A stretch of 36,056 nucleotides of DNA, from the IMG/VR virus record IMGVR_UViG_3300029319_000183, positions 1 through 36,056 of that record, one strand, 5' to 3'. The DNA is from a virus. Position 1 is the stretch's first letter. Every line of letters begins with the position of its first letter. The translations under genes and the position numbers were made by a program. A model generated the notes under the pieces. That model saw nothing but the letters and a program-made list of their open reading frames with translations. It did not search any database and was not told where the DNA came from. This document shows, one piece after another, positions 5,697 to 30,549 of this stretch.

Positions 5697-5711
5697 ATAA
5701 ACTTCCTATAA

Positions 5712-5744
5712 ATAGCATGGTATCTACCATTAAGCTTCTGCTAT
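5712..5744. other. Nested inverted repeat between two late genes
   Basis: ATAGCA at 5712-5717 pairs with TGCTAT at 5739-5744. Inside it, ATGGTA (5717-5722) pairs with TACCAT (5725-5730). It occupies most of the 67-base gap between the lysine-tailed gene and the small virion gene. There is no T-run on either side, so it is not a clear terminator. RNA processing or a protein site is possible. Confidence 0.4.
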
Positions 5745-5763
5745 GTAAATCATAACAAAGAAT

Positions 5764-6135
5764 TTATGATGATGCTTTCTTTGTTGTTTTCTTTTTAGTA
5801 GTTTTCTTTTTTGCAGTTGTTTTTTTCTTTGGTGCTTTGCCACCTTCCCATGCTTCATTAACATCAGGAGTTTCTGGGTCATCACCTATAAGTTGTCCTT
5901 TTTTGTTTCTTGCTCTTTTAACTTCTTTAACATCAGCTTCTACATCTACAGTTTCTTCTACTGAATCAACTTTTACTTCCATCGCCCAACCATTTTCAAT
6001 AAATTTTTCCATGACATCATCTTGCCATGCACCTTCAGATTCTACGATTTCGTCAGCTTTATAAAGTTTTACTTCAGTTCCATGCTCATTACAAGAAGCT
6101 GGTTTTGGAACTACTATTTTAAATTTTCTTGCCAT
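5764..6135 (-). CDS. Small protein with histone-like lysine tail
   Basis: This 123-residue protein has two parts. Residues 1-~65 are a folded-looking mixed domain (KFKIVVPKPASCNEHGTEV, then GAWQDDVMEKFIENGWAMEV), followed by an acidic stretch. The last ~22 residues are KKKTT-type repeats resembling the tail of histone H1 or bacterial HU/H1-like proteins. The SD AAGGA is about eight bases before the ATG. The gene lies downstream of the terminator-like hairpin, between the decoration and fibre genes. I do not recognise the family. A DNA-contacting head or head-completion role is a guess from the basic tail and the position. Confidence 0.75.
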   Translation of the reverse strand: MARKFKIVVPKPASCNEHGTEVKLYKADEIVESEGAWQDDVMEKFIENGWAMEVKVDSVEETVDVEADVKEVKRARNKKGQLIGDDPETPDVNEAWEGGKAPKKKTTAKKKTTKKKTTKKASS

Positions 6136-6146
6136 TTTTTTTCCTT

Positions 6147-6172
6147 AAAAGCGTGGGGTGTTGCCACCCCAC
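6147..6172 (-). terminator. GC-rich hairpin after the capsid/decoration genes
   Basis: On the minus strand GTGGGGTG (6172-6165) pairs perfectly with CACCCCAC (6160-6153) around a GCAA tetraloop, a GNRA-type loop. GCTTTT follows. It sits just past the decoration gene in an otherwise AT-rich region. The short U-tract suggests partial termination or 3'-end protection of the abundant capsid message rather than a full stop, because late genes continue downstream. Confidence 0.65.
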
Positions 6173-6185
6173 TTATATACATCAA

Positions 6186-6635
6186 TTATGCAGTTGATAA
6201 AGTATCTGCATCAGTGTTGTGTCTTGGACTTCCTTTGATGATAGTTGCAGCTATCGGAGTACCATTAGAGTGTGTACCAGTAAAGTCTGCTACTACTCTT
6301 AAATATCTCTTGCCACCAACATAACCAATAGAGGTTACTTGTGGTGTTTCTGCATTTGCATCTAAAGTTAAGAAGATACCATTTGAATCAACACTTCCAT
6401 CAGTTACATGTAAAGAACTTGTAACTGCAGTAAATGTAGAATTATCATCTGAATCTTCTAATTTAAAGTCAATCTTAACTGATGTTGAAAGAGTATCTCC
6501 TTCTACACCAGTATCAACTACTGCTGTTGCAGATTCAAAAAATTGTAAATCTACACCAGTGCCATTTGTGTCACTTGTACCAACAACAGGTGCAATTGAT
6601 TGAATAATACTAATATTATTAGCTAAGTCTTTCAT
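6186..6635 (-). CDS. Head decoration-like protein
   Basis: This 149-residue protein lies 14 bases downstream of the capsid gene, with AGGGAG as SD. It opens with MKDLANNISIIQSIAP and carries the conserved block IGYVGGKRYLRVVADF (103-118), followed by GTPIAATIIKG. This form recurs immediately after HK97-type major capsid genes in many phages, where it is annotated as a conserved or decoration-like protein. The fold appears all-beta. The position before a strong hairpin fits a highly expressed capsid-binding protein. A decoration role is inferred, not shown. Confidence 0.82.
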   Translation of the reverse strand: MKDLANNISIIQSIAPVVGTSDTNGTGVDLQFFESATAVVDTGVEGDTLSTSVKIDFKLEDSDDNSTFTAVTSSLHVTDGSVDSNGIFLTLDANAETPQVTSIGYVGGKRYLRVVADFTGTHSNGTPIAATIIKGSPRHNTDADTLSTA

Positions 6636-6649
6636 TTACTACTCCCTGC

Positions 6650-7864
6650 TTACGCTGTTACTTTAAGTTTATTTATGGCTTCAGGAAGAATCACTTGCCC
6701 ACCAACTCTTCTTCTAGCAATGTATCTTACATTACCAGTAGTTGCTTGGGTAAATGGGTCTCTTAATACAGCTAAAGCCACCCTATCTACGATCATGTAT
6801 GCTTTGCTAAAGTCACCAAAAGCGACTGGGAAAGCATTTTGTGCTATAGAAGGCATATCTGTAGCTTCCACATATGGTTGACCTAAGATGGTGTTTACCA
6901 TGTTACCACCTAACATCATACCTGTTTGGAAAACATACTGACCTGCAGTATCTTTAAGCTTTCTTATTTCAGCTAAAGTGCTTCTGTTAAATACAAAAGT
7001 ACCATTTCTGCCATAATCAGACTTAATGTTATGCACTAGTGAAATCAAGCTATCTGCTGTGATTGCAGTATTTGAACCTGTGTCAACAGAACTAACACTA
7101 GAGTTAGTCATGAAACCTTCAGGCTTACCTACAGCGTTACCACTAACAAATGCAGTACCTTCAGCTTTTGCAAACTGTGTTGCAAACTCTGATTGCATTT
7201 CTGCTTCTAAGTCAAATACTGAATCTTCTAAGTCTTGTTCAGAAATATCAACTAACGCATAGTATTCATGTGCAGGTAATTCTTCTAAACCAACTGTATA
7301 TCCAGTAGTCTCACTTCTTGTGCCACTTTCAGCAACCCACTGTGCAGCAAAAGTACCAGTTCTCTTTGGAATCTGTACACTTCTTTGCCCAGTGCTTCTT
7401 ACTCTAGCAATGCTTCTAATAGGTGAGATTTCTGTAACATCTTTGATAAGTTCTCTCACATATTCAGGTGGTGCTAAATAACCACCAGTTGAGTCATTGC
7501 TGACTGTTAAAGCTTTCTTCTCAGTATCGCTAAGTCCTTCAAGTCCTTTTCTGCAATATCTGTCAAAAGCTTCCATGTATTCATCTACTTGCTTACTTTC
7601 AAAACCTGAATTTGGTCTTTTTACAACTGTTTCAAGTTTTTCTAGTTGGCTTTTGATGTTTTCAGCGTTAGCTTCAGCAATTGTGAGTTTTTGATTGATG
7701 TCTTCATAAGAATCCATCTTAGCTTCAACTTTAGCTAATTTCTCGTCCACATATGCTGTACTTTCGCCTTTTTCTAGCTTTTCAAGTCTTTCGTCATTGA
7801 CCTTTTTAAATTCTTCAAAGGTTGAACCCATTTCTTGAATAGCGTTTTTTACATCTTCCGACAT
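6650..7864 (-). CDS. HK97-family major capsid protein
   Basis: The 404 residues match the HK97-fold capsid family. Residues 1-~105 are a charged coiled-coil delta (scaffold) domain. The conserved capsid domain starts at STGGYLAPPEYVREL (about 125). Typical blocks follow: ISPIRSIARV, VAESGTRSETT, ALVDISEQDLEDS, GNAVGKPEGF, FVFNRSTLAEI and VGGQVILPEAI near the C-terminus. The protease encoded just upstream would be expected to remove the delta domain near residues 105-120. AGGAG lies six bases before the ATG. This is the shell subunit, present in hundreds of copies. Confidence 0.97.
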   Translation of the reverse strand: MSEDVKNAIQEMGSTFEEFKKVNDERLEKLEKGESTAYVDEKLAKVEAKMDSYEDINQKLTIAEANAENIKSQLEKLETVVKRPNSGFESKQVDEYMEAFDRYCRKGLEGLSDTEKKALTVSNDSTGGYLAPPEYVRELIKDVTEISPIRSIARVRSTGQRSVQIPKRTGTFAAQWVAESGTRSETTGYTVGLEELPAHEYYALVDISEQDLEDSVFDLEAEMQSEFATQFAKAEGTAFVSGNAVGKPEGFMTNSSVSSVDTGSNTAITADSLISLVHNIKSDYGRNGTFVFNRSTLAEIRKLKDTAGQYVFQTGMMLGGNMVNTILGQPYVEATDMPSIAQNAFPVAFGDFSKAYMIVDRVALAVLRDPFTQATTGNVRYIARRRVGGQVILPEAINKLKVTA

Positions 7865-7876
7865 AGTTATCTCCTA

Positions 7877-8923
7877 TTAAGATTTTAAGGTTAAAGTTAA
7901 ATGTTTTATGGCATCTACCAATTCAGCATTTGAGTCAACCTCTCGCTGACTGAATGCATCAGTTACAGCTTTTGCTGCAACTTTCGCTTCTGAACGAGAC
8001 AACGAGAAAGCATCTCGCATTCCATTTTCCCATTCTCTTATGGAAATTTCTTCGCCTTTAACCGACATTACTGTCGCTCTTGGGTTCATTGGAAAAGTTA
8101 CCAACGAAACTTCCATTAAATCTACTTCTTTAATAATTCGCTTATTTGCTCTTTTATCGTAAGAAACTTCTTTTGGGTTTACTCTAAATCCTATAGACAA
8201 TCCATCTAAAGCACCCATTTTTAATAATTCATACGCTTCTTGACCAGCTTGTGTTTTTAAAGCTAACCGACCTTTTACATAAAGACCTTTATCATCTTCG
8301 CGTATTTCATCAAATACACCTATAGGCATATCAGATTTGTGTTGATATAAAAGCTTAACTTGATTTGGTTTTTTTCTTTTTAAAGAATTAGCAAAAGCAC
8401 CAGATTCTATAACATCGTTGCCTAAATCTTTATTACCAAAAATAGAACCATATCCTTCAAAAGTACCATATTCTTTATCTTCTTCGTCTTCTAAATGGCC
8501 ACCTAAAAATTCAGTCTTTACAGATAAGACTTCTTCTAAATGCTCTAAAGCATCTTTCATGTCTTTTGGTTTCTTCTTTTTAGGTTTTTTATGATAACCT
8601 AAAACTTCTCTGCCAGTAAGTTCAGTGTATTCTTCGTGTGTTTTGCATGGCATGTAAACTTTATTGCCATTTTCATCGTGAGAGTGTGTGCCTACACAAC
8701 CAATCTCTTCTGCTCTTGCTTCTGCTTCTTCTTCAGTAGTAAAAACATCTTTTCTTAGTTCTCTTTTGCTATCTAAAGAATCTTCTTTATCTGAATTATA
8801 ACTGCTGTTACAGACAGCTAACCTTTGATTTGAATCATATTCATCAACCATAGTGCTATCTCCCATGCATCGTTCTAAAAAATCTTGCCTAGACTCGTTA
8901 AGTTTTGGTTTCGGTATAGGCAT
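7877..8923 (-). CDS. HK97-type prohead protease with long N-terminal extension
   Basis: Residues ~135-290 match the S78/HK97 prohead protease: FEGYGSIFGNKDLGNDVIESGAF, then LLYQH (H195), GLSIGF (S243) and MEVSLVTFPMNPRA (E271), giving a His/Ser/acid catalytic set. It cleaves capsid delta domains and itself during head maturation. The 348 residues exceed the usual ~200. The extra ~130 N-terminal residues hold two Cys/His segments: ERCMGDSTMVDEYDSNQRLAV with C38 (residues 17-38) and IGCVGTHSHDENGNKVYMPC (74-93). A KKPKKKKPK linker follows. These segments recall motifs fused to head proteins in other phages; their function is unknown to me. There is a short gap of 12 bases to the capsid gene. 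Confidence 0.93.
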   Translation of the reverse strand: MPIPKPKLNESRQDFLERCMGDSTMVDEYDSNQRLAVCNSSYNSDKEDSLDSKRELRKDVFTTEEEAEARAEEIGCVGTHSHDENGNKVYMPCKTHEEYTELTGREVLGYHKKPKKKKPKDMKDALEHLEEVLSVKTEFLGGHLEDEEDKEYGTFEGYGSIFGNKDLGNDVIESGAFANSLKRKKPNQVKLLYQHKSDMPIGVFDEIREDDKGLYVKGRLALKTQAGQEAYELLKMGALDGLSIGFRVNPKEVSYDKRANKRIIKEVDLMEVSLVTFPMNPRATVMSVKGEEISIREWENGMRDAFSLSRSEAKVAAKAVTDAFSQREVDSNAELVDAIKHLTLTLKS

Positions 8924-15049: not shown

Positions 15050-15691
15050 ATGTCAATAGAATTACTTAATCTATCACTTAAAGTCAAAGGTCTTACTCCA
15101 ACTAAAAAATTAATATTAGTCATACTTTGTAACTACGCAGATGAAAAAGGAAGTTGCTATCCTAGTTATCAACATATTGCAGATATTGTTGGTCTAAAAG
15201 ATTCACGAGGTGTTAGAAGAACTATTAAAGAGTTTGAAAAGCTTGGTATTTTAAAAATACAAAACAGAATATTAAACAATGGTAGCTTTACAAGTAATCG
15301 CTATTTTATACAAATATCTAAGGGTATTAAGAACCCTATGGGTGCTGACACCCATACCCTCTGGGCATCACGACCCTGTAATACTAAAGAAGATACTAAA
15401 ACTATTTATAGCAAAGATTTTAATGAATTTTGGAATTACTACCCTAGAAAAGCAAGTAAGTTTGAATCTGCTAAATCTTATAAAAAAGCAATAGAGATTA
15501 TACAAAAAGAAGAATTATTAGAAAAAACTATAGCATATGCTAAGTCGGTAGAATCCATAGAAGATAAATCTTTTATACCACATGCAAGTACATGGTTAAA
15601 TCAAAGAAGATATTTTGATGATATAGAAGATATAAAACCTAAAAATACAAGGCCAAAGTCAAACGACTGGGCAAAAGACCTTGAACTATGA
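15050..15691 (+). CDS. Replication initiator-like protein (lambda O type)
   Basis: This 213-residue protein has two domains. Residues ~10-95 are a winged helix of the phage initiator type (PTKKLILVILCNYADEKG, CYPSYQHIADIVGL, RRTIKEFEKLGILKI, SNRYFI). Residues ~120-200 match the C-terminal domain common in phage replication proteins (DFNEFWNYYPRK..., PHASTWLNQRRYFDD). The two are joined by a polar linker whose DNA holds nested inverted repeats (15321-15360), as the lambda origin lies inside gene O. It would bind the origin and recruit host or phage helicase. No polymerase or helicase gene is in the window. The end overlaps the convergent glycosyltransferase gene by six bases. The SD is AGAGG. 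Confidence 0.82.
   Translation: MSIELLNLSLKVKGLTPTKKLILVILCNYADEKGSCYPSYQHIADIVGLKDSRGVRRTIKEFEKLGILKIQNRILNNGSFTSNRYFIQISKGIKNPMGADTHTLWASRPCNTKEDTKTIYSKDFNEFWNYYPRKASKFESAKSYKKAIEIIQKEELLEKTIAYAKSVESIEDKSFIPHASTWLNQRRYFDDIEDIKPKNTRPKSNDWAKDLEL
15321..15360. other. Putative replication origin: nested inverted repeats in the initiator gene
   Basis: AGGGTAT (15321-15327) pairs with ATACCCT (15354-15360). TATGGGTG (15337-15344) pairs perfectly with CACCCATA (15349-15356). AGGGT (15321) also pairs with ACCCT (15333-15337). This GC-rich patch stands out and is followed from about 15375 by an A/T-rich stretch that could melt. It lies in the interdomain linker of the initiator, the lambda-like place for an origin. 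Origin function is inferred. Confidence 0.5.
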
Positions 15692-16555
15692 AGGTACTCT
15701 TTTTAACTGCATATTATATTTATTACCTTTAATTTTTAAATTCTTTTTTCTAATTAATTTATTTACCTTAAATTGACTGTAATCAACATAATGATGTATT
15801 CTGCCGAATCTTTTTACTACCTTTGATATATCAGGATAAACTTTTACCTGCATTTTAGATTTTTCTAGTGTTCCTTCTTTATCATAAAACTCTGCTGAAT
15901 TGCCACCTCTTACTTGTTGCGTTGTAATTTTTTCTTGTAAAAAAGCATTAAATTGTATAGTGCATAATCCATTAGTTAGTATATCTAAGCTAAGAATAGT
16001 ATCTTCGTTATATCTGCCACGCCAACGATAAGGCAAATCATTCTTTATAAAATTACAAGAATAAATCCTTGTATTTAAAATAAAAGGTGGACTTTTTTGC
16101 CTTGCAGGTTGAAACATATAATAGTTTGGTCCTGCCATACCAACATTTTCATATCTTAAAACAAAATCTTCCATGGCTCTAAATATAGTACCTGATGATA
16201 CTTTTACTTTTTCATTTAGGTTATAACGTCTAAAACTTCGTATATTATCGTCCATAACCCAATGATAGTCGTAGCCTTCTTTAATAGAATAATCCCATAC
16301 AAAATTTCTAGCTGGTCCTGGTCCAGTAGATTTAGTTAAACCAAGTTCATCACATGTGTCATACTTTTCTTTATAAGACATATCAAGTTCTAATAGCTTA
16401 TTTCTATCTTTAACATGACTTAAATACATATCATATTCTGATGGTTCAACAACAATACGATATGGTACTTTCATATAATCTAAGTATCTAGCTGTATATC
16501 TTGTATCAGCTCTGCCTTTTGAAACTATAAATAATGGATATTTTGGATTAGTCAT
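15686..16555 (-). CDS. TET-associated-type glycosyltransferase
   Basis: This 289-residue protein has the layout of the phage TET-associated glycosyltransferase family (TAGT): YPLFIVSKGRADTRYTAR (6-23), VPYRIVVEP (30-38), GPARN (80-84), HWVMDDN with the DD metal/nucleotide-sugar site (98-104), AGPNYYMF (141-148), and the strongly conserved YRWRGRYNEDTILSL (176-190), then GRIHHYVDY (241-249). The family is a GT-A-like sugar transferase predicted to glycosylate modified bases in phage DNA. No TET/JBP oxygenase or hydroxymethylase is visible here, so the acceptor is unknown. It overlaps the ParB gene by eight bases and ends against the convergent initiator gene. Confidence 0.85.
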   Translation of the reverse strand: MTNPKYPLFIVSKGRADTRYTARYLDYMKVPYRIVVEPSEYDMYLSHVKDRNKLLELDMSYKEKYDTCDELGLTKSTGPGPARNFVWDYSIKEGYDYHWVMDDNIRSFRRYNLNEKVKVSSGTIFRAMEDFVLRYENVGMAGPNYYMFQPARQKSPPFILNTRIYSCNFIKNDLPYRWRGRYNEDTILSLDILTNGLCTIQFNAFLQEKITTQQVRGGNSAEFYDKEGTLEKSKMQVKVYPDISKVVKRFGRIHHYVDYSQFKVNKLIRKKNLKIKGNKYNMQLKRVPS

Positions 16556-17165
16556 ACCTTTTACTTTCTGTATCCATATTTACTTGTTCTGGATACCAAA
16601 TAGATTTTGTTTTATCTGTATGATTTTGTTGTAACAGTTCAAAGAAATTATCGCAATCTTCCTCGCTAGCAAAATGTACTATTACACTTCTGACAGAAGT
16701 CTTATCGCTTTGGTTATATTCAGGCATACCTTCCCATTCATTTAATATGCTTTCTACAACTCTATCATCTTCTATAAAAGGCATTACTTGTTCTTTGTCA
16801 AAACCTATTAAATCTATGTTGTAATCAGTATCAGTAAGTTCCTTAATTTGTTTCCAAAGCAATTCTTCGTCCCATGTAGAATTTATTGCTAATTTATTAT
16901 CTGCAATATTTAATGCTTTCTTTTGTTCCTCGGTAAGTCCTTCTACAACAATACAAGGCACAGTTTCAAGTATTAATGTTTTTGCTGCCATTAATCTGCC
17001 ATGACCTGCAATTAAAAAGTTTTTTTCATCTACTAAAAGGGGATTAGTAAAACCAAATTCTTTAATAGATTCTGCTATTTGAAATACTTGTTTGTTTGAA
17101 TGTTTTCTTGGATTTTCTATATTTATTTCTATATCTTTTATTTTTATATCTTTTATATTTAACAT
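16548..17165 (-). CDS. ParB/Srx-domain protein with phage-type C-terminal domain
   Basis: This 205-residue protein begins with a ParB-type catalytic domain: ENPRKH (17-22), the GFTNPLLVDE strand, AGHGR (53-57), then TEEQKKALNIADNKLAINS (78-96). That form is typical of ParB domains paired with DNA-modification enzymes rather than plasmid partition proteins; no HTH or CTD dimer follows. The C-terminal domain (~135-205, VIVHFASEEDCDNFFELL, then TDKTKSIWYPEQ) recurs in phage modification neighbourhoods. It overlaps both neighbours by 7-8 bases, so it very likely works with the glycosyltransferase and cytidylyltransferase. A nucleotide-using transferase role is predicted; nuclease or regulatory roles are alternatives. 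Confidence 0.83.
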   Translation of the reverse strand: MLNIKDIKIKDIEINIENPRKHSNKQVFQIAESIKEFGFTNPLLVDEKNFLIAGHGRLMAAKTLILETVPCIVVEGLTEEQKKALNIADNKLAINSTWDEELLWKQIKELTDTDYNIDLIGFDKEQVMPFIEDDRVVESILNEWEGMPEYNQSDKTSVRSVIVHFASEEDCDNFFELLQQNHTDKTKSIWYPEQVNMDTESKRYD

Positions 17166-22874: not shown

Positions 22875-23318
22875 CTAAACATGACTCCAGTCCTGTCCTT
22901 GAAATAACAAAGCTTCTGCTTCCCTTCTTCTTACAAGACCTTCATTAAGTTTACCACCTGCTTTATTCCACCTTTTAATTTGTTCAGGTACATTTTTAAA
23001 GTCTTTAGCATTTAAAACTTTCAACAAAGTTGATGAACGTAAATTAGAACCACCTAAATTAAATGTCCAACTTACAAGTGCATCAAACATACACTGGTCA
23101 ATATCTACTGTTACAGCATTATTTACTTCTTCCTCGTAAACTGCTAAATCTTCTATTAATAGTGCTTCTGCTCTATCATGTGTTATGACCATTCCTTCTG
23201 ATACGCCCTTTGTTGAACCCCAACCAATTGTCCATACTCCAGCAGCACATTTGTAGCTTTCGTAACGACAACCTTCAAACTTTTTAATTAAACTTATTCC
23301 TTCTTGTGATATTTCCAT
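22875..23318 (-). CDS. GH24 lysozyme (endolysin)
   Basis: This 147-residue muramidase is of the T4/P22 type. EGISLIKKFEGCRYESY carries the catalytic Glu15, AAGVWTIGWGST (25-36) carries the conserved TxGWG site, and ALVSWTFNLG plus GLVRRREAEALLF are also typical. It cleaves peptidoglycan at lysis. There is no signal peptide or SAR segment, so it needs a holin. The ATG at 23318 lies one base after the nuclease stop with GGGGTG as SD. A longer frame upstream merely reads through the nuclease gene. Confidence 0.94.
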   Translation of the reverse strand: MEISQEGISLIKKFEGCRYESYKCAAGVWTIGWGSTKGVSEGMVITHDRAEALLIEDLAVYEEEVNNAVTVDIDQCMFDALVSWTFNLGGSNLRSSTLLKVLNAKDFKNVPEQIKRWNKAGGKLNEGLVRRREAEALLFQGQDWSHV

Positions 23319-23319
23319 A

Positions 23320-23715
23320 TTATTCACCCCATGTTCCATTATCTCTAACTTTAGCAGTTTTTTTACCACCCCAATACTCAACTGCGTGTCCCTCATCAAT
23401 AAGAATTTGACAAATACTTTGACCATCTTCACAATACGGAATACCCAAGATTCGTCCATATTTACCTTTTCCTAATGATTGTATTTTGAAATTATTGACA
23501 CACAATTCTTTTAATCTTTCTTTTGCTTTTAGACCTAAAGCTTTTTCTTTTAGATTTCTTGTACGAGATTCTGGTGTATCAATACCAGCTAATCGTACTC
23601 TTTGTTTATGAAGCTTTACACTAAAACCTAAATCCAGCACTACATCTATGGTATCTCCATCAATTACCCGGTCTAATATTGCATTATAGACAAATGGTGT
23701 AATGCTGTTTGACAT
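23320..23715 (-). CDS. Staphylococcal-nuclease-like thermonuclease
   Basis: This 131-residue protein has the SNase fold: VIDGDTIDVVLDLGF (17-31), RVRLAGIDTPESR (39-51, active-site Arg and Asp), KEKALGLKAKERL, GKYGRILGIPY and LIDEGHAVEYWGG. It hydrolyses DNA/RNA with calcium. No signal peptide is visible, although the usual secreted family has one. It lies between holin-like and lysozyme genes, so it is expressed late and could degrade residual host nucleic acid or act at lysis. Start context: two bases after the holin-like stop. Confidence 0.92.
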   Translation of the reverse strand: MSNSITPFVYNAILDRVIDGDTIDVVLDLGFSVKLHKQRVRLAGIDTPESRTRNLKEKALGLKAKERLKELCVNNFKIQSLGKGKYGRILGIPYCEDGQSICQILIDEGHAVEYWGGKKTAKVRDNGTWGE

Positions 23716-23923: not shown

Positions 23924-24307
23924 TTATTCTGCTTCTTTGTCAATAGTTACTTTTCTATAGTAAACAACAACATCTTTTAATTCAGTAATATAACGCTTTA
24001 TTTCTTGCATGTTATATGCCATAACTTCGTAATCAGGAATCGTCATAGCTAAAAAAATTAACTCTCCTTCTTGCTCTTCTATAAAAGCTAATTGTTCTTC
24101 GTAGTTTTCTGGAGTTACAACAATCCACATTGGTTCTTGTAAATCTATTTCTCTAGGCATAATAGGTTGTACTATTTTCCTTTCAATTGGCTTTGCAGAT
24201 ACTTCTATTTGTTTAGTTGGTATCAGACTGCAATTGGATATTACTATCAAGGTCATCAACGTCACTACTGATTTGCTCAATATTCTCCATGATATGCTTT
24301 GTTCCAT
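23924..24307 (-). CDS. o-spanin (Rz1)-like lipoprotein
   Basis: This 127-residue protein starts inside the i-spanin gene (95-base overlap), the classic Rz/Rz1 arrangement, with an AAGGA SD. The N-terminus has a hydrophobic stretch (SKSVVTLMTLIVISNC) ending at Cys26 as a possible lipobox, though Asn before Cys is unusual. The rest (MPREIDLQEPMWIVVTPENY, then LIFLAMTIPDYEVMAYNM and EIKRYITELKDVV) matches long Rz1-like proteins. Outer-membrane location and membrane fusion with the i-spanin are inferred. Confidence 0.78.
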   Translation of the reverse strand: MEQSISWRILSKSVVTLMTLIVISNCSLIPTKQIEVSAKPIERKIVQPIMPREIDLQEPMWIVVTPENYEEQLAFIEEQEGELIFLAMTIPDYEVMAYNMQEIKRYITELKDVVVYYRKVTIDKEAE

Positions 24308-24608
24308 TATTTATTTTCCTTTGCATTTCTACTGGGTCTGCCATTATTTTTGCAGATAGTTCATAGTTTTGTATAAATTGTGTATATCTATTGAGTTCCC
24401 TTTGTGCAGCTTGGCTTTTCAAAGATAATTCGTTCATTTGTTGTGTTTGCAGTTCAAAATCTGCTTGTATAGACTTGATTGCTTCTTCTTGTTCTGCTAT
24501 TGCACCTTCTAAAGCTTTATTATTAGATTTAAGTGTTATATTTTCTTGATAAAGGTAATAACCACTAAAACTAAGCACTAAAATTATACCAAATAAAAAT
24601 TGCTGCAT
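24213..24608 (-). CDS. i-spanin (Rz)-like protein
   Basis: This 131-residue protein has one N-terminal membrane helix (FLFGIILVLSFSGYYLY, 4-20) and then a long coiled coil (ITLKSNNKALEGAIAEQEEA onward to ~100). This is the layout of the inner-membrane spanin that bridges to the o-spanin and disrupts the outer membrane at lysis. The start overlaps the previous stop as TAATG, with AGAGGA as SD. Confidence 0.82.
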   Translation of the reverse strand: MQQFLFGIILVLSFSGYYLYQENITLKSNNKALEGAIAEQEEAIKSIQADFELQTQQMNELSLKSQAAQRELNRYTQFIQNYELSAKIMADPVEMQRKINNGTKHIMENIEQISSDVDDLDSNIQLQSDTN

Positions 24609-24832
24609 TATATATCCTCTATTATGTAATTTAGGCCAGAAGCACTTCTATATTCAATTAATCTGTTATTCTCATCACGAAATTTAAGATGTTTTTCTTT
24701 TTGTACTAATATTTTTTTTGATGTGTATGTTTTGTCATCTGAATCACCATACTCCTTATTGAAAGATACTGTTATTTTGTATCTTGTTATAAACAGACTT
24801 AAAATCCAATTTATTACATTTTTTAATTCCAT
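24608..24832 (-). CDS. Small conserved phage protein, unknown
   Basis: This 74-residue protein has a short hydrophobic N-terminus (VINWILSLFIT) and then a beta-rich part (YKITVSFNKEYGDSDDKTYT, KHLKFRDENNRLIEYRSASG, LNYIIEDI). I have seen this form as a hypothetical protein in phages. It overlaps the cyclase end by ten bases. The function is unknown; membrane association is possible. Confidence 0.75.
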   Translation of the reverse strand: MELKNVINWILSLFITRYKITVSFNKEYGDSDDKTYTSKKILVQKEKHLKFRDENNRLIEYRSASGLNYIIEDI

Positions 24833-26592
24833 GTATACACCTGTAACTTTTCTTTTTTGCCTTTTGCTTCTAAAGGTTTTAATGGTATTAAATCAAATTC
24901 TAATGCATTTTCTGTAGTTTCGCCAATTAAAAGGTCAACACCAGCAGCTTTTGTACCTGACTCAAGTCTAGCTGCAACATTAACAGCATCACCTATTGCT
25001 GTATAATCAAACCTTGTATTTGAACCCATATTTCCTACAACAGCAAAACCACTATTAATACCAATACCAATTTGAATTGGAGATATACCCTCTATATCTA
25101 ATTCTTGATTTAGTATTTTCATGTTATTTTGTATTTCTAATGCACAAAGCAAAGCTTTTTCTTCATGTTTATCTAAATCTAGGGGTGCGCTAAATATAGC
25201 CATCATGGCATCACCTATATATTTATCTATCATGCCACCATATTTTTGTACTGCTTTTTGTTGTGCTGTAAGAGCTTTATTCATGATGTATGTAACTTGT
25301 TCAGGCTCAAGTGTTTCTGATAAAGATGTAAAACCACGCACATCTGTAAATAAAAAAGTGCAGTAACGCTTTTCTCCACCTAGTTTTAATAACTCTGGAT
25401 TATTCTGTAGTCTTTTCACTTGCCTTGGGTCAAGATAATGCTGAAATTGTTTCTTTATTTGCTGTCTTAGCTTGTATTGTTCTCTAAATCTTATATAAAA
25501 AGCTGTCGTACCTGCAATAAACTGTGATATTAAAGACCATGAAACATCTATTAACAGACTACGGGTTATAAGATATGCACCTACACCACCTGTAAGAGCC
25601 ATTACACCTAATCCTAATATGATTCCCCAAGTAATACCTAATCTAATCAATACAAGCCATATTAGGCTTACTGAAAGCACAAATATAAATATTTCTACAG
25701 ATAAAGAATAATCAGGTATATAAGGACTATCTTGTATAAGTATTGATTCTGCTAATGCAGCTTGTATTTTATGTGGTTCTAATAATCCAACAGGTGTTGC
25801 TATTTGTGGCATAACACCATTTGCTGTAACACCTACAATAACAAACTTACCATTTACTTCCATTTCTTCTAAATCTGTTTGTGGTGTATCTACCCAACTA
25901 ATCCACTTTCTGCCAAGACTATCTGTTTTAACAGGTGGTATTCCTCGTATTGATATTTCCTCTATACCATTATCATTAGTTTTTATAATATAAGTTCTTA
26001 TATTGAAAAGTGCTTTATATATTTGTGTGCCAAAACTTGGAATCCATTCATTATCTGGTGTTTTTACTAATAAAGGTATTCTGCGTACAAGCTGGTCTAT
26101 ATCTGTGGGTGCAATAGCTAAACCCTGTAAAGTGTGATTGGATAAGAGAGAAAGGTTTTGCTTCACACCCAAACTGATTATACCACCATTATCTTTGCCT
26201 TTTACAACTGTTCCTGTAGCTTTAGGGTATTTACCTTTGCCATCTTCAAACATAGCAATTACAGATGGTGCATATCCTAAAGACCTAGCAAATTCTTCAT
26301 CACCTCCAAATCTATCTGCTTGTGGAAAAGATATAGCATATCCTACACCTAAAGCACCTTTACCAAGAATATCTAAGTTTATCTCTGCTAATCTTTTTCT
26401 TGGTAATGGGTAACCACCTTCTTTTTCTACATCTTCTTCAGTTATATTTAATATTACAAAATTACCAGAAGGTTCATATTCTTTAACAAACTTATCAAAT
26501 GTTCTTAGCTTTATTAATTCTGTTGGCGTACTTTTAAATATAAGTGGTAGTGATAATACAACTAACAAAGGTATAAATAATCTATATTTCAC
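24823..26592 (-). CDS. CHASE2-domain adenylate cyclase
   Basis: This 589-residue membrane enzyme has a membrane helix at ~4-19 and a periplasmic CHASE2 sensor at ~20-300 (FVILNITEEDVEKEGGYPLP, FPQADRFGGDEEFA, IVGVTANGV). Three membrane helices follow at ~308-368, then a class III cyclase at ~405-589. Metal-binding D417 (LFTDVRGFTS) and D461 (YIGDAMM) are present. Adenine-selecting K457 and D529 point to cAMP rather than cGMP. N538 and R542 (GDAVNVAARLE) complete the active site. The GTG start overlaps the fecR-like stop as GTGA. A complete sensor cyclase in a phage late operon is unusual. It would raise host cAMP in response to an unknown periplasmic cue, perhaps sensed with the FecR protein. 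Confidence 0.94.
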   Translation of the reverse strand: MKYRLFIPLLVVLSLPLIFKSTPTELIKLRTFDKFVKEYEPSGNFVILNITEEDVEKEGGYPLPRKRLAEINLDILGKGALGVGYAISFPQADRFGGDEEFARSLGYAPSVIAMFEDGKGKYPKATGTVVKGKDNGGIISLGVKQNLSLLSNHTLQGLAIAPTDIDQLVRRIPLLVKTPDNEWIPSFGTQIYKALFNIRTYIIKTNDNGIEEISIRGIPPVKTDSLGRKWISWVDTPQTDLEEMEVNGKFVIVGVTANGVMPQIATPVGLLEPHKIQAALAESILIQDSPYIPDYSLSVEIFIFVLSVSLIWLVLIRLGITWGIILGLGVMALTGGVGAYLITRSLLIDVSWSLISQFIAGTTAFYIRFREQYKLRQQIKKQFQHYLDPRQVKRLQNNPELLKLGGEKRYCTFLFTDVRGFTSLSETLEPEQVTYIMNKALTAQQKAVQKYGGMIDKYIGDAMMAIFSAPLDLDKHEEKALLCALEIQNNMKILNQELDIEGISPIQIGIGINSGFAVVGNMGSNTRFDYTAIGDAVNVAARLESGTKAAGVDLLIGETTENALEFDLIPLKPLEAKGKKEKLQVYTWN

Positions 26593-27713
26593 GATTCTTG
26601 CCTTATTGTTATAACATTACTACTTCCACCATTAATTTTTACAACACGAGAAACACCATTTTGTACAAGAATTACTGTATAAGAACCATCTGTACCTAAA
26701 TCTAATTTTACATTTGCTTGATTTGATATTCTTTGCATTTTTACTATCTCGCCTTGTACTAGCGTTATGATACCTGTTTCTGTATCTTGACCTACCTTTG
26801 TACCTGTTATATTTAATGCAGTTGCTATTTGTAATTGGTCTTCTTCTTCTTTTACTGCTAAAGCATCTAATACATCTAAAACATCTTCAAGAAAATTACC
26901 ATCTGCTAAATAATCAATGTCTAATTCTGTAAATTCTAAATCATCATCTTTTAAAAAATCTTCTGATAATGGGTCATAGTCAAGACCATTAAAATCAAGA
27001 ATGCTATCTGTTGCATTTGTATATACAACTTCTTCTATAATTTCTTTTTCTTCAGGTGGTGTAACAATTAATAAATTATCAATATCATTTAATGTTAAAT
27101 CTAATATAGCTGGTTTACTTGGTGATGATTCAAATACACTAACTGTAGTTGCTTCAAATGGTTTATTAAGTATTACACTTCCTGTTGCAGTTATTACTTC
27201 TATCTCGCCACTTGATAAACCTAAAGCATCAGGTAAAAGTATCACTAAACTTCTTCCTAACTCGTCTACTGTTGCAGTAAAATCTGTACCACGAATTGCT
27301 ATATTTGCTGTTGGTGTTTTTAGTTTTATATTTTGTTTATCTATGCGATTTAGATTACCTGTTATAAATCTAGTTGTACCAAGAGCAAAGGTAAGAGCCA
27401 TCTTAGATTTACTTGGGTCTATGTCATATATGTATTCGTCAATAAGAAGTTGACTATGTTCGGTTAGTTTTACTGTAGAATCATCTAAAAACTTAATGGC
27501 CATACGACCATTTGTTGTTATAGCTTCATCATTTGTTTGAATTCCTAATTTTAATTTAGCAGTATTAACTTCTGCATTTCTAACTATTTGTGCTAGGCCA
27601 TTTAGTTCAGATATATCTCCAATGTCAGCAAGAAGTGGTTGTGCCATTAGCGTCATTTTGTATGACGCAAACAGTACCATTGTTGCCATTTGAAATAATT
27701 TTAAGCCAGTCAT
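26589..27713 (-). CDS. Secreted FecR-domain protein
   Basis: This 374-residue protein has a signal-like N-terminus (residues 1-~29, hydrophobic LFQMATMVLFASY). The FecR domain spans ~60-165: DEAITTNGRMAIKFLDDSTV, GTTRFITGNLN, then the hallmark TPTANIAIRGTDFTATV (123-139). Residues ~210-295 are very acidic, and the end has beta repeats (GSYTVILVQNGVSRVVKING). FecR domains act in the periplasm in sensing or envelope assembly. This protein lacks the N-terminal anti-sigma part of true FecR. It overlaps the curlin-like gene by 89 bases and the cyclase by four, so it likely links fibre secretion and the CHASE2 sensor. The start is uncertain (Met at 1, 9, 12 or 20; no SD). Confidence 0.88.
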   Translation of the reverse strand: MTGLKLFQMATMVLFASYKMTLMAQPLLADIGDISELNGLAQIVRNAEVNTAKLKLGIQTNDEAITTNGRMAIKFLDDSTVKLTEHSQLLIDEYIYDIDPSKSKMALTFALGTTRFITGNLNRIDKQNIKLKTPTANIAIRGTDFTATVDELGRSLVILLPDALGLSSGEIEVITATGSVILNKPFEATTVSVFESSPSKPAILDLTLNDIDNLLIVTPPEEKEIIEEVVYTNATDSILDFNGLDYDPLSEDFLKDDDLEFTELDIDYLADGNFLEDVLDVLDALAVKEEEDQLQIATALNITGTKVGQDTETGIITLVQGEIVKMQRISNQANVKLDLGTDGSYTVILVQNGVSRVVKINGGSSNVITIRQES

Positions 27714-28344
27714 TATCTAATGTACTTGATTGTGTAATATTAAAAGTTCTTGAACCGCCTGTATGGTCTAAGTAAAAATAACCACCTTGATAACCACTAC
27801 CTGAAAAATTTATAGTATTATCAGAACCATCTATGTCCATATAATTTGTACCTAAATCATAATTAACACTTGATGTTACTGTATTATTAGAACCATTAAT
27901 AATCCAATCTAAATCTAATGTAGATGCTATTGCACTTGTTGCTTGATTAAAAGTAAATGTATTTGAACCACCTGTTACTTGTACATTTACATCAGAAGTA
28001 TCTGCACTATAAGTATTTGTTGGGTCAGTCTGCATAGTAAATGTATTACCTGTACCAGTAAATTCAAAAAAGCCAGTATAAGAATCTGCTGTAATATCAC
28101 CAAGAAACTTATTTGTAGAACCTATTTGATTTATGTCTAAAGTCATAGAGTCACCTCTAAGACCTAAAGCTGTTAAAGTTCCAGCAACAGAATTAAGACC
28201 ACCAATAATATTTCCACTACCAGCAATTTGTTCTAAATCTACAGAAGAACTATTACCTGCAGCTTGACTTACATAGATTTCGTTGTCCGATGCGACTGCA
28301 ACAAAACTGATAAAAAACAACGAATATAAAAAATATTTATTCAT
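27625..28344 (-). CDS. Curlin-like (CsgA-type) secreted repeat protein
   Basis: This 239-residue protein has a clear signal peptide (MNKYFLYSLFFISFVAVAS). The mature part has about eight degenerate repeats of 24-30 residues with a strand, G-x-x-N turn, strand pattern: VDLEQIAGSGNII, LDINQIGSTNKFL, FEFTGTGNTFTM, VNVQVTGGSNTFTF, WIINGSNNTVTSS, MDIDGSDNTINF, LDHTGGSRTFNI, ISNGNNGTVCVI. The first two keep the curlin Q-x-G-x-x-N form. Such proteins stack as beta-solenoid amyloid subunits. Two Cys lie near the C-terminus. It directly follows csgG and csgF, its expected pore. The ATG at 28344 overlaps the csgG stop; a TTG at 28371 would extend it. The call rests on repeats plus neighbours. Confidence 0.82.
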   Translation of the reverse strand: MNKYFLYSLFFISFVAVASDNEIYVSQAAGNSSSVDLEQIAGSGNIIGGLNSVAGTLTALGLRGDSMTLDINQIGSTNKFLGDITADSYTGFFEFTGTGNTFTMQTDPTNTYSADTSDVNVQVTGGSNTFTFNQATSAIASTLDLDWIINGSNNTVTSSVNYDLGTNYMDIDGSDNTINFSGSGYQGGYFYLDHTGGSRTFNITQSSTLDNDWLKIISNGNNGTVCVIQNDANGTTTSC

Positions 28345-29158
28345 ATTTCCAATACCCTCGTTGATAACCAATATTTACTATATCTAATAATGCACTTTCT
28401 ATTGCCTTTTGTAAAGCAATTACACCACTCTCATTCTCTGCTCTGCCCATTTCTATTTCAACTAATTCTGTTCCAGCTTCAATAAATCTAAAAACATCTT
28501 GTGCAGAACCATGACTGTAAATTGTTTTTGTTTTTGTTTTTTCTACGAGTATCTCACCTGTATTAACACTAATCATTCTCAGTGAAATAGTAATATTGTC
28601 GGTTCTATAAATTTCACTGCTTCCAATCCCAAGATAACGAAATCCGACACCACCTGAATTAAGATTTGTTTCATAAGAAACTATTGCACCTTGCATCAAA
28701 ACACCTGCAAAAAGCAAAGGCATAAGAGACGAATCAATCTTGTTTCCATCTTCATCAACCAATTGTTCTCTTGTGCTTCTTATAAGTTGTCTTTCTTTTG
28801 TTAAATTATCAAGACCTACTCTTTCTACTACAATCCAAAAATCACCTTCTGCTGTTTCTTTCAGTGCTTTTATCAACAGGTTTTCAGGTGCTTGTGTCAA
28901 AGCTGTAGAAAACAAAGCAAACTCGCTGTTGCTTTTTCTTTGTCCTGTTTGATCTGTAAATGAGTTGCCATAGACTGCAACTACTGGTTTTATAGTAGGT
29001 TTTTGTACGCTTCTAAGTGCTTCACTAGATAGTAAATCTTGTGGTTTATCTAAATCCTTACTTGGAAATCTAGCGTTATAGGTATCGTCTGATATGTCTA
29101 ATAAACTGCAAGAACTAAAAACTAAAGTCACCAAGAGGTAGCTGTATGATTGTTTCAT
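28337..29158 (-). CDS. csgG: CsgG-family curli secretion channel lipoprotein
   Basis: This 273-residue protein starts with a lipoprotein signal ending FSSC (Cys17). The CsgG core follows: KPVVAVYGNSFTDQTGQRK, FWIVVERVGLDNLTKERQLI, the transmembrane hairpin region (ALMPLLFAG-type stretch through GAIVSYETNLNSGGVGFRYL), and then ITISLRMISVNTGEILVEK. CsgG forms a nonameric outer-membrane pore that exports unfolded curli subunits. Length and blocks match bacterial CsgG. The ATG at 29158 gives a normal signal; an ATG at 29170 adds four residues. It overlaps csgF upstream and the curlin-like gene downstream. Confidence 0.94.
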   Translation of the reverse strand: MKQSYSYLLVTLVFSSCSLLDISDDTYNARFPSKDLDKPQDLLSSEALRSVQKPTIKPVVAVYGNSFTDQTGQRKSNSEFALFSTALTQAPENLLIKALKETAEGDFWIVVERVGLDNLTKERQLIRSTREQLVDEDGNKIDSSLMPLLFAGVLMQGAIVSYETNLNSGGVGFRYLGIGSSEIYRTDNITISLRMISVNTGEILVEKTKTKTIYSHGSAQDVFRFIEAGTELVEIEMGRAENESGVIALQKAIESALLDIVNIGYQRGYWKYE

Positions 29159-29633
29159 TACCATCGGCATCTACGACTGTTAGTGTTATCATTCCATCTT
29201 CAATTTTGTAAGATATTATATTACCTTCTAATTCAAATGTTCCTTCTGTTGATTGACTCTCGCCAAACATATTATTGACAATTTGTTGTGCTATTTTTGC
29301 ATATATACGACTTTCTAAACTACGAATAAATCTAGCCAGTGTGGTGTTTTCTTTATCTCTTTTTATTTGATCTTGCAGTGCTTTTAGTTCTTCTTTTATC
29401 GTCATTTCACGAGTGTGCGTTTGTGAATCTATAGTAAGATAATGTGAACTTGTACCAACACCACTAAATGAAGGTGATTTGAATTTAAAAGTTATAGTGT
29501 CGGCATTAAGATTGATAGCAATTATTCCAAGAATTAAGATTGCACCCATAACAAATGCACCCCAAATAATTCTAAGTTTTTGTATTTCTGTTTCTTGTAT
29601 TTCCTTTTTTGTTTTTTTCTTCTTTGTTATCAT
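29115..29633 (-). CDS. csgF: CsgF-like curli assembly protein with membrane-anchor N-terminus
   Basis: This 172-residue protein has from ~45 the CsgF pattern: ITFKFKSPSFSGVGTSSHYL (compare TFQFRNPNFGG of CsgF, the part that plugs into CsgG), then FIRSLESRIYAKIAQQIVNN, TFELEGNIISYKIEDGMITL and TVVDADGNETIIQLP. CsgF caps the CsgG pore and guides fibre nucleation at the surface. The N-terminus is odd: 22 Lys-rich residues precede a hydrophobic helix (WGAFVMGAILILGIIAI). GAGG six bases before the ATG at 29633 supports that start. An internal ATG at 29549 would give an ordinary signal peptide. Next gene: csgG, overlapping. Confidence 0.88.
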   Translation of the reverse strand: MITKKKKTKKEIQETEIQKLRIIWGAFVMGAILILGIIAINLNADTITFKFKSPSFSGVGTSSHYLTIDSQTHTREMTIKEELKALQDQIKRDKENTTLARFIRSLESRIYAKIAQQIVNNMFGESQSTEGTFELEGNIISYKIEDGMITLTVVDADGNETIIQLPLGDFSF

Positions 29634-29883
29634 CTAATACCTCTTTGTTTTTGTTTTTCAAAACAGTATTAACCTTTGTTTGTAATCGTATCATATCTTG
29701 ATCTAGTAAGCGAAGTTGGTCAGTAAGTCTTATGATTGTGGTTTTCATTTCCATGACTGCTGGATCAATCACTTTGTTGATAGTTTGCCAAACATAATAG
29801 ACAAAATATCCAAGACCTACGACCATAACGACAGGGAATCCAAAGTCTGCTATCAGTTGTGCAACACTAATCTCTTCTTGCAT
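29572..29883 (-). CDS. Small single-helix membrane protein, holin-like (copy B)
   Basis: This 103-residue protein has one membrane helix (FPVVMVVGLGYFVYYVW, ~16-32), an amphipathic coiled segment (MEMKTTIIRLTDQLRLLDQD, MIRLQTKVNTVL) and a Lys/Asn-rich tail. It is clearly paralogous to the next upstream gene. The layout resembles small BhlA/UviB-type holins. It overlaps csgF by 62 bases. Lysis or a membrane role for the curli apparatus are both possible. Confidence 0.75.
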   Translation of the reverse strand: MQEEISVAQLIADFGFPVVMVVGLGYFVYYVWQTINKVIDPAVMEMKTTIIRLTDQLRLLDQDMIRLQTKVNTVLKNKNKEVLDDNKEEKNKKGNTRNRNTKT

Positions 29884-30160
29884 CTATCTTGCCATCTTCT
29901 ACGAAGTTCTCTGCTCTTGCTATCCTATCTAGGTCAGGTGGTAAATTTAATGCACTTGAAACGCTTGTATCAATTCTTATGATGTCGTTGTTCATTATTG
30001 TTGCTCTTGTTATCAACATTTTAGTGATGGCTTGTGTTGTTTTGATTTCATCAACCAAACCTTCCATAAGTTGTTTCATAACAAGAAATATAAAGTAAGC
30101 CATAACTAATGCACCTGCTATTGGTACACCAACCTCTGCAATGAGGTTAAAGACTTCCAT
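29867..30160 (-). CDS. Small single-helix membrane protein, holin-like (copy A)
   Basis: This 97-residue protein has a membrane helix (VPIAGALVMAYFIFLVM, ~12-28) followed by ITKMLITRATIMNNDIIRID and a charged end. It aligns with copy B in the helix, the DIIRI/DMIRL segment and spacing, so the pair arose by duplication. It joins the upstream gene by TAATG. A holin-like role is inferred. Confidence 0.75.
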   Translation of the reverse strand: MEVFNLIAEVGVPIAGALVMAYFIFLVMKQLMEGLVDEIKTTQAITKMLITRATIMNNDIIRIDTSVSSALNLPPDLDRIARAENFVEDGKIDARRD

Positions 30161-30549
30161 TACTTATCTTCGCCTTTGAAACTCTTAGATGCTCCTGAAG
30201 TACCTGCATAAAGTCCAAACCATGCAGCACCTGCACCAACAACAACAGATATAAGACCTGATTGTTCAAAGTTTGGTTCTTCTAAACCCATAAACCACAT
30301 AACTGTTGTGTATAACAGTATGATGTAAACAGTTAAGAATGCTCTTGGAAAGATACGCCATGAATCTACAGCTTGTGCTAAATGTATCCATTTTTGATGT
30401 GGATTGACATTTTTGACATCTTCTAGTTCTCTGATCTTATCTTTGAGTTCACCGATCTCTTGAATCATAGACATGAACTTATTCAAGTCCATTTCTACTT
30501 CGTTTCTATCCATGTCGCCACCAAAACGACCACTACCCATATTATCCAT
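30160..30549 (-). CDS. Two-helix membrane protein, possible holin
   Basis: This 129-residue protein has an acidic N-terminus with a short coiled coil (MSMIQEIGELKDKIRELED), the motif NPHQKWIHLAQAVDSWRIFP, and two membrane helices (FLTVYIILLYTTVMWFM and LISVVVGAGAAWFGLYAG). It ends in a short charged tail. The form is common near tail genes in marine-type phages and fits a class II holin topology. It sits after the tail chaperone and before the paralogous pair. Confidence 0.75.
   Translation of the reverse strand: MDNMGSGRFGGDMDRNEVEMDLNKFMSMIQEIGELKDKIRELEDVKNVNPHQKWIHLAQAVDSWRIFPRAFLTVYIILLYTTVMWFMGLEEPNFEQSGLISVVVGAGAAWFGLYAGTSGASKSFKGEDK

Follow-up and report, generated by a model that had tools for sequence, protein, structure and literature searches.

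Why should a tailed phage place relatives of the bacterial curli secretion proteins between its tail genes and its lysis genes? This question is raised by a 36-kb marine viral contig from IMG/VR (record IMGVR_UViG_3300029319_000183), the whole 36,056-nt stretch of which was analyzed and is here called the window. The window encodes an HK97-type head set (terminase, portal, protease and capsid), Dit, a J-like tail protein and lysis genes, and it is read as a siphophage because the HK97-type head genes occur together with Dit and the J-like protein. A first-pass annotation made from the DNA letters had described three overlapping genes at positions 27625-29633, encoding a CsgF-like protein, a full CsgG lipoprotein and a secreted repeat protein, and all three were found again at these coordinates on the minus strand. 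The set as a whole is longer than had been described. It spans positions 24823-30160 and also includes two small membrane protein genes (tmA and tmB), a gene for a FecR-domain protein and a gene for a CHASE2-adenylate cyclase, which had been missed. We estimate with a probability of roughly 60% that this module is a phage form of type VIII (curli) secretion, which is made together with the late genes and exports a substrate of its own to the cell surface; the estimate refers to export and carries no figure for any benefit to the phage.

A pore, its partner and a curlin-like substrate

CsgG forms the outer-membrane pore of curli systems, while CsgF, whose N-terminal peptide enters the barrel of CsgG, links export with assembly. 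Both families are represented in the window well above the Pfam cut-offs, in agreement with the first-pass annotation. CsgG reached 151.6 bits against PF03783 (cut-off 20.8) over profile positions 4-207 of 210 and matched the solved E. coli CsgG structures in the PDB with E=2e-39 (phmmer), and CsgF reached 70.4 bits against PF10614 (cut-off 25.8) over profile positions 4-132 of 132. Cys21, the acylated residue of the CsgG lipoprotein, was invariant across 24 aligned sequences, including an E. coli row that was entered by hand, and the Phe of the FSTA motif, which aligns with the constriction residue F56 of E. coli CsgG, was nearly invariant. The mature N terminus of CsgF, DTITFKFKSPSFSG, corresponds to the region of E. 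coli CsgF that inserts into CsgG. Likewise, F51, P54 and F56 of the FxxPxF peptide of CsgF were invariant in 15 sequences from phages and bacteria, and this peptide aligns with FRNPNF of E. coli CsgF (CsgF chain of PDB 6L7A), although the pairwise alignment is weak.

The relation of the third gene product to curlins became apparent at the level of family profiles. As a single sequence the protein scored 11.9 bits (E=0.22) against the Pfam profile Curlin_rpt (PF07012), below the cut-off of 20.7, and it is therefore named curlin-like and not curlin; the NCBIfam CsgA model matched with E=0.0036. Curlin_rpt lines were obtained for 16 of 26 family members (best 8.6e-6), and the comparison of the family with 12 bacterial curlins by hhalign gave a probability of 92.6% and E=4.6e-7 over an alignment that contains the signal peptide. 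The motif GxxN-x-[hydrophobic] occurs in seven copies, a number reached in 0 of 20,000 shuffles, and the GxxN repeats at 42, 75, 97, 125, 151 and 173 are invariant columns among 24 relatives. A repeat beta-solenoid fold for 27625-28344 had been named beforehand as the check on which the proposal should stand or fall, and the AlphaFold2 model, computed from an alignment without the rows of the phages HTVC008M and Melnitz (see below), is all-beta and forms a beta-solenoid with a predicted local distance difference test score (pLDDT) of 82 and a predicted template modeling score (pTM) of 0.80. The structural matches from VIA were beta-helices, the best being SufD (Z=17.4, root-mean-square deviation 3.0, 194 residues aligned); the entries listed were beta-helices generally with no curli entry among them, and further families may lie outside this listing. 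Foldseek returned no match under E=0.3 with the same model. Matches of the substrate profile to PDB sequences, namely antibody chains and one cell-surface protein (E between 0.01 and 0.07), were judged to be due to chance. The description as curlin-like was thus sustained by the repeats, the family profiles and the fold, but not by the single-sequence Pfam score, and the opposite conclusion, that a protein without a curlin match is not curlin-like, was dropped because profiles and fold back the relation. As far as profile comparisons can tell, the product of the third gene is related to curlins.

The ratio of nonsynonymous to synonymous polymorphism (pN/pS), determined for four genes, was 0.14-0.28 for the substrate and 0.19-0.43 for the other genes tested, and by this measure the curlin-like substrate, CsgF and CsgG are under purifying selection. 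The confident single-chain model, the very uniform substrate length of about 215 mature residues and the unusually strong conservation outside the repeats (GGYFYLDHTGGSRTFN), which is nearer to that of a folded protein than to that of a classical curlin, would also be expected if the exported solenoid passed through the pore to serve as a monomeric surface adhesin or receptor mask without forming fibers. We regard this as quite improbable, since the open edges of the solenoid favor stacking, the protein is of curlin ancestry, and the overlap with fecR may account for part of the conservation at its C terminus. In this overlap 89 nt (27625-27713) are dual-coding, the last part of the curlin-like gene also encoding, in a different frame, the FecR signal peptide.

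Conservation of the module and the proposed roles of FecR and the cyclase

IMG/VR was searched with CsgG, the curlin-like protein, tmA and hol2TM, a holin-like gene upstream of the module; since the selection of loci rested on similarity to proteins of the window, the figures given here describe this clade and not all viruses. Across related loci the order was one or two tm genes, CsgF, CsgG, the curlin-like gene and FecR, sometimes followed by a second curlin gene and usually by the CHASE2-cyclase. CsgF, CsgG, the curlin-like protein and FecR occurred together in all 55 non-identical viral loci with at least 6.8 kb downstream, in which the CHASE2-cyclase was present in 41 and an endolysin in 37. 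Siphophage tail genes were found in the carriers of 29 loci, some of which are overlapping copies of one contig. The export reading is supported by the finding that substrate, CsgF, CsgG and FecR were never apart in the 55 loci, and by the same gene order, without tm genes, in three alphaproteobacterial genomes. In the CsgG tree all phage proteins fell into one supported clade (100/99), which also includes the bacterial chromosomal copies L092 and L095 and short contigs of metagenome-assembled genomes (L093, L129); the bacteria in this tree were picked by similarity to the window, and the direction of transfer is not readable from it. A further CsgG match, on an unverified 1.5-kb contig of Salmonella phage S.Kent (L091, OR851715), was set aside as probable contamination.

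The FecR domain (PF04773) was matched by 24 of 24 FecR family members. At the FecR C terminus a repeat of the form INGGSxxxIxIxQ resembles curlin repeats in look, the profile comparison with curlins being weak (probability 1.8%, E=0.027), and the structure model of FecR was poor (pLDDT 60). In the cyclase, the motifs FTD, KYIGD and TAIGDAVNVAAR were located at 415, 457 and 531, and these residues are presumed, from general knowledge, to have their usual roles in catalysis. As the catalytic motifs are kept, the CHASE2-cyclase is probably active. The presence of FecR in every locus and of the cyclase in most suggests that FecR is a part of the export or assembly machinery, while the cyclase is an optional read-out.

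Several observations weigh against export by a curli-type route. Two of the three constriction residues of E. coli CsgG, Y51 and N55, are not kept at the aligned positions of the window protein, and no Pfam match to CsgE was found among the window proteins scanned, which represent a part of all open reading frames. In addition to its Curlin_rpt score below the cut-off, the substrate has lost most of the classical curlin Q/N ladder, and its secretion, fiber formation and amyloid state are putative. Moreover, cells infected with Melnitz showed no clumping (PMC9004378). The lack of a CsgE gate among the proteins scanned would also fit an ungated outer-membrane channel that admits larger nutrients, such as iron complexes and cofactors, to streamlined hosts during infection, an idea that has been put forward before (PMC7029224, PMC9599517) and that could draw on the iron-uptake context in which FecR is found elsewhere. 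Such a role is very unlikely, as it leaves both the conserved CsgF and the conserved exported solenoid unexplained; moreover, FecR domains are widespread and the one in the window is part of a secreted protein with no FecI partner seen, and the CHASE2-cyclase is not an uptake gene.

Layout of the late operon

In the minus-strand run from J to the spanins, many genes overlap and no gap exceeds 8 nt. The run comprises, in this order, J, a tail chaperone, hol2TM, tmA, tmB, CsgF, CsgG, the curlin-like gene, FecR, the CHASE2-cyclase, a gene for a 74-aa protein, Rz and Rz1, and is followed beyond a 208-nt gap downstream of Rz1 by HNH and endolysin genes (Table 1). Overlaps within the module amount to 62 nt between tmB and CsgF, 56 nt between CsgF and CsgG, 8 nt between CsgG and the curlin-like gene and 89 nt between the latter and FecR. 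The overlapping run and the purifying selection bear out the earlier proposal that pore, partner and secreted repeat substrate belong to one late operon running into the lysis genes. Elsewhere in the window, at 15686-17165 on the minus strand, a gene for a TET-associated glycosyltransferase (PF20691, E=4e-38) adjoins a ParB-N gene, a pairing that suggests glycosylated, hypermodified phage DNA.

Table 1. Genes of the curli-type module and of the flanking lysis region in the window.
Feature	Position	Strand	Evidence
hol2TM, holin-like membrane gene; upstream edge of the cargo slot	30160..30549	-	phrog_10198; neighbor survey
tmA, 97 aa, N-terminal membrane segment and predicted coiled coil; first module gene in phages	29867..30160	-	phrog_18771 E=7e-24
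tmB, 103 aa, membrane/coiled-coil, paralogue-like to tmA	29572..29883	-	phrog_18771 E=1e-21, phrog_4898 (holin) E=2e-4
CsgF-like pore partner	29115..29633	-	PF10614 E=2.1e-19
CsgG lipoprotein pore subunit	28337..29170	-	PF03783 E=2.4e-44
Curlin-like exported repeat protein (predicted): signal peptide, GxxN repeats, C-terminal Cys pair; predicted beta-solenoid	27625..28344	-	repeats, profiles, model
FecR-domain protein with signal peptide	26589..27713	-	PF04773 E=1.2e-9
CHASE2 sensor and class III nucleotide cyclase	24823..26592	-	PF05226 E=2e-24, PF00211 E=3e-20
Rz-like spanin; downstream edge of the slot	24213..24608	-	phrog_739 E=4e-11
Second Rz/Rz1-like spanin gene; 95-nt overlap with Rz	23924..24307	-	phrog_812 E=5e-11
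Endolysin	22875..23459	-	phrog_7 E=7e-62

The tm genes and the cargo slot in the lysis cassette

One or two tm genes stood directly before CsgF in 51 of the 52 loci fetched with CsgG or the curlin-like protein, and curli genes were present in 45 of the 46 loci fetched with tmA, which in the phage collection matched only the curli-bearing HTVC008M and Melnitz. Of 84 CsgF loci from the genome collection whose upstream sequence was long enough, two had tm genes (L094, L097). L097 is read as phage because it has T4-type clamp and clamp-loader-like genes aboard, and once it and L094, a 3.9-kb contig, are set aside, the count for bacterial CsgF loci becomes 0 of 82. Tm genes are also missing from the three bacterial operons that come closest, in Hyphomonas TMED17 and two Caulobacteraceae, which run from CsgF through CsgG, curlin and FecR to the cyclase. 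The tm genes are a near-obligate, phage-specific partner of CsgF loci. Phage-type curli clusters were also seen on contigs binned as Sphingobacteriales (L097), Pirellulales (L129), Pelagibacter (L093) and Flavobacteriales (L094), and the last three, which are short, may be phage too. Neither tmA nor tmB gave a match to HisKA/HATPase_c or another kinase domain in Pfam or NCBIfam. The label histidine kinase that has been published for the one or two genes before csgF is probably a misannotation, since position and copy number fit the tm genes, yet the window pair has no kinase domain; the published genes were compared by their description.

The slot between the holin-like gene and Rz is filled by the curli module, by another secreted set or by nothing. 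Among hol2TM loci with a downstream spanin, the curli module occupied this interval in 15 (about 5.2-6.0 kb for those with a listed size), a stretch of 3.7-4.5 kb without curli genes was seen in 11, less than 1 kb in seven, and the tm pair only in two; in four of the seven short-slot loci (L186, L216, L217, L233) the curli genes lie upstream of hol2TM instead. The alternative cargo in L180 (9366-13049) and L187 (9290-13100) consists of three genes, encoding an Asn/Thr-rich secreted protein, a secreted protein of 745-767 aa that matches no Pfam family and a small membrane protein with a coiled coil, and gaps of similar size occur in L178, L196, L218, L223, L224, L235, L238, L240 and L241. The tm pair was found without curli genes, ahead of spanin or endolysin genes, in L231/L232 and L296, and can therefore live without curli; these cassettes may represent its ancestral role or a relic.

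These surroundings bring lysis itself into consideration, in that the CsgG:CsgF pore could be a timing device which perforates or depolarizes the outer membrane shortly before lysis, together with holin, spanins and endolysin, the repeat protein being a plug or a bystander. In contigs of siphophages and other non-myophages, Rz, Rz1 and endolysin come directly after the module, its first genes encode holin-like membrane proteins (phrog_4898 matched tmB with E=2e-4 and a single-copy tm relative with E=0.003, with no holin match seen for tmA), the lysis cassettes of two lineages retain the tm pair without the rest of the module, and a pinholin/secretin role has been proposed for Melnitz (PMC9004378). 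However, HTVC008M and Melnitz, both myophages, carry the module apart from their annotated lysis genes, and the argument for Melnitz was built on absent substrate genes, yet its record annotates two curlin-repeat proteins. Furthermore, substrate and FecR are always kept, and the outer-membrane step is already covered by the spanins. A function in lysis timing is thus unlikely, and export of the solenoid protein remains the preferred reading.

Relation to known curli modules

The curli module itself is largely known in kind from myophages and podophages. In the Pelagibacter myophage HTVC008M (KC465899) the order is tm, tm, CsgF, CsgG, a curlin-like gene annotated as CsgB, a FecR-like gene, a second curlin gene and adenylate cyclase, and its CsgG is 50% identical to that of the window over the aligned part; in contrast to the window, it has a myophage backbone, the additional curlin gene, a position outside the lysis cassette and a substrate closer to classical curlin. 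The type VIII secretion systems of HTVC023P-type pelagipodophages, with one or two genes named histidine kinase followed by CsgF, CsgG, CsgA/B, FecR, in some cases another CsgA/B and adenylate cyclase (PMC9599517), are also similar, but belong to podophages, and their pre-CsgF genes bear the kinase name that the window pair does not warrant. The same study, published in 2022, described curli modules with substrate in pelagipodophages and pelagimyophages, their expression in metatranscriptomes, and clusters that also lack CsgE (PMC9599517). Methylophilales phage Melnitz shares the gene order including FecR, curlin repeats and cyclase, but infects OM43 and has been reported to carry csgFG only, with a pinholin-like role being proposed (PMC9004378). 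The Melnitz record (5701-8495) annotates two curlin-repeat proteins and FecR, where that paper states that fiber genes are missing. HTVC008M and Melnitz, whose hosts belong to different classes, share the module order, and GenBank annotates the substrate in both. Further cases are a T4-like Bacteroidetes-associated phage (PMC7198788) and the frequent csgG genes of seawater phages (PMC11309003).

Compared with the E. coli curli genes (csgBAC/csgDEFG), the window has the CsgG and CsgF families and a curlin-type substrate, but CsgE, CsgC and CsgD were not found among the proteins scanned, FecR and the CHASE2-cyclase are extra, and the substrate is divergent. The Hyphomonas TMED17 (L092) and Caulobacteraceae (L095/L096) operons share the core order from CsgFG through curlin and FecR to the CHASE2-cyclase and have the closest bacterial CsgG, but differ by their lack of tm genes and their chromosomal context. 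The first-pass annotation was right that curli-type genes occur in other marine phages, as is the case in HTVC008M, Melnitz, pelagipodophages and pelagimyophages. It overstated its case in calling a set with its own substrate unusual, because a substrate is present in 55 of 55 related viral loci and the same order is already found in HTVC008M, Melnitz and the published pelagiphages (PMC9599517). Within open-access papers, to which the comparison was confined (subscription papers and preprints being outside its scope), the siphophage carriers, the cargo slot, the tm statistics and the curlin annotation in Melnitz may be new.

Possible role in infection

If the export reading is correct, the solenoid protein would leave the cytoplasm by Sec, pass through the CsgG:CsgF pore and be displayed or polymerized on the infected cell's surface ahead of lysis. 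FecR and the CHASE2-cyclase in the inner membrane would signal the assembly of pore or fiber to the cytoplasm as cyclic AMP, and the phage-specific tm proteins might connect the module with the inner membrane or with the holin/lysis program. The surface layer might then act on encounters between phage and cell, either by blocking superinfection or by holding cells and progeny together. Superinfection block, progeny held near hosts and a pre-lysis pore, all of which the first-pass annotation had suggested, are already published speculation (PMC9599517, PMC9004378, PMC7029224). T7 particles were trapped in E. coli curli and were still infectious (PMC8346279), so that it is physically plausible for a surface layer to act as a shield against superinfection and likewise to trap progeny. 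A more far-reaching proposal would be that the curli route now serves marine phages as a means of surface display under the control of lysis genes. The slot between holin and spanin would then receive either a curli exporter with its solenoid or an unrelated secreted pair, the tm proteins would link export to the timing of holin and lysis, and cells would be coated only just before lysis; in this full form we consider the proposal rather unlikely.

Should the module be a complete secretion line in a phage of lytic type, the host would gain a new surface late in infection, and the hosts of the published cases have no curli genes of their own. Published work had left the substrate and the function in doubt. 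Here, no complete related locus examined lacked a gene for the substrate. With purifying selection acting on this protein and a beta-solenoid as its predicted fold, its export and the resulting phenotype are directly testable. Moreover, the slot in the lysis cassette suggests that remodeling of the cell surface before lysis may be a wider phage strategy.

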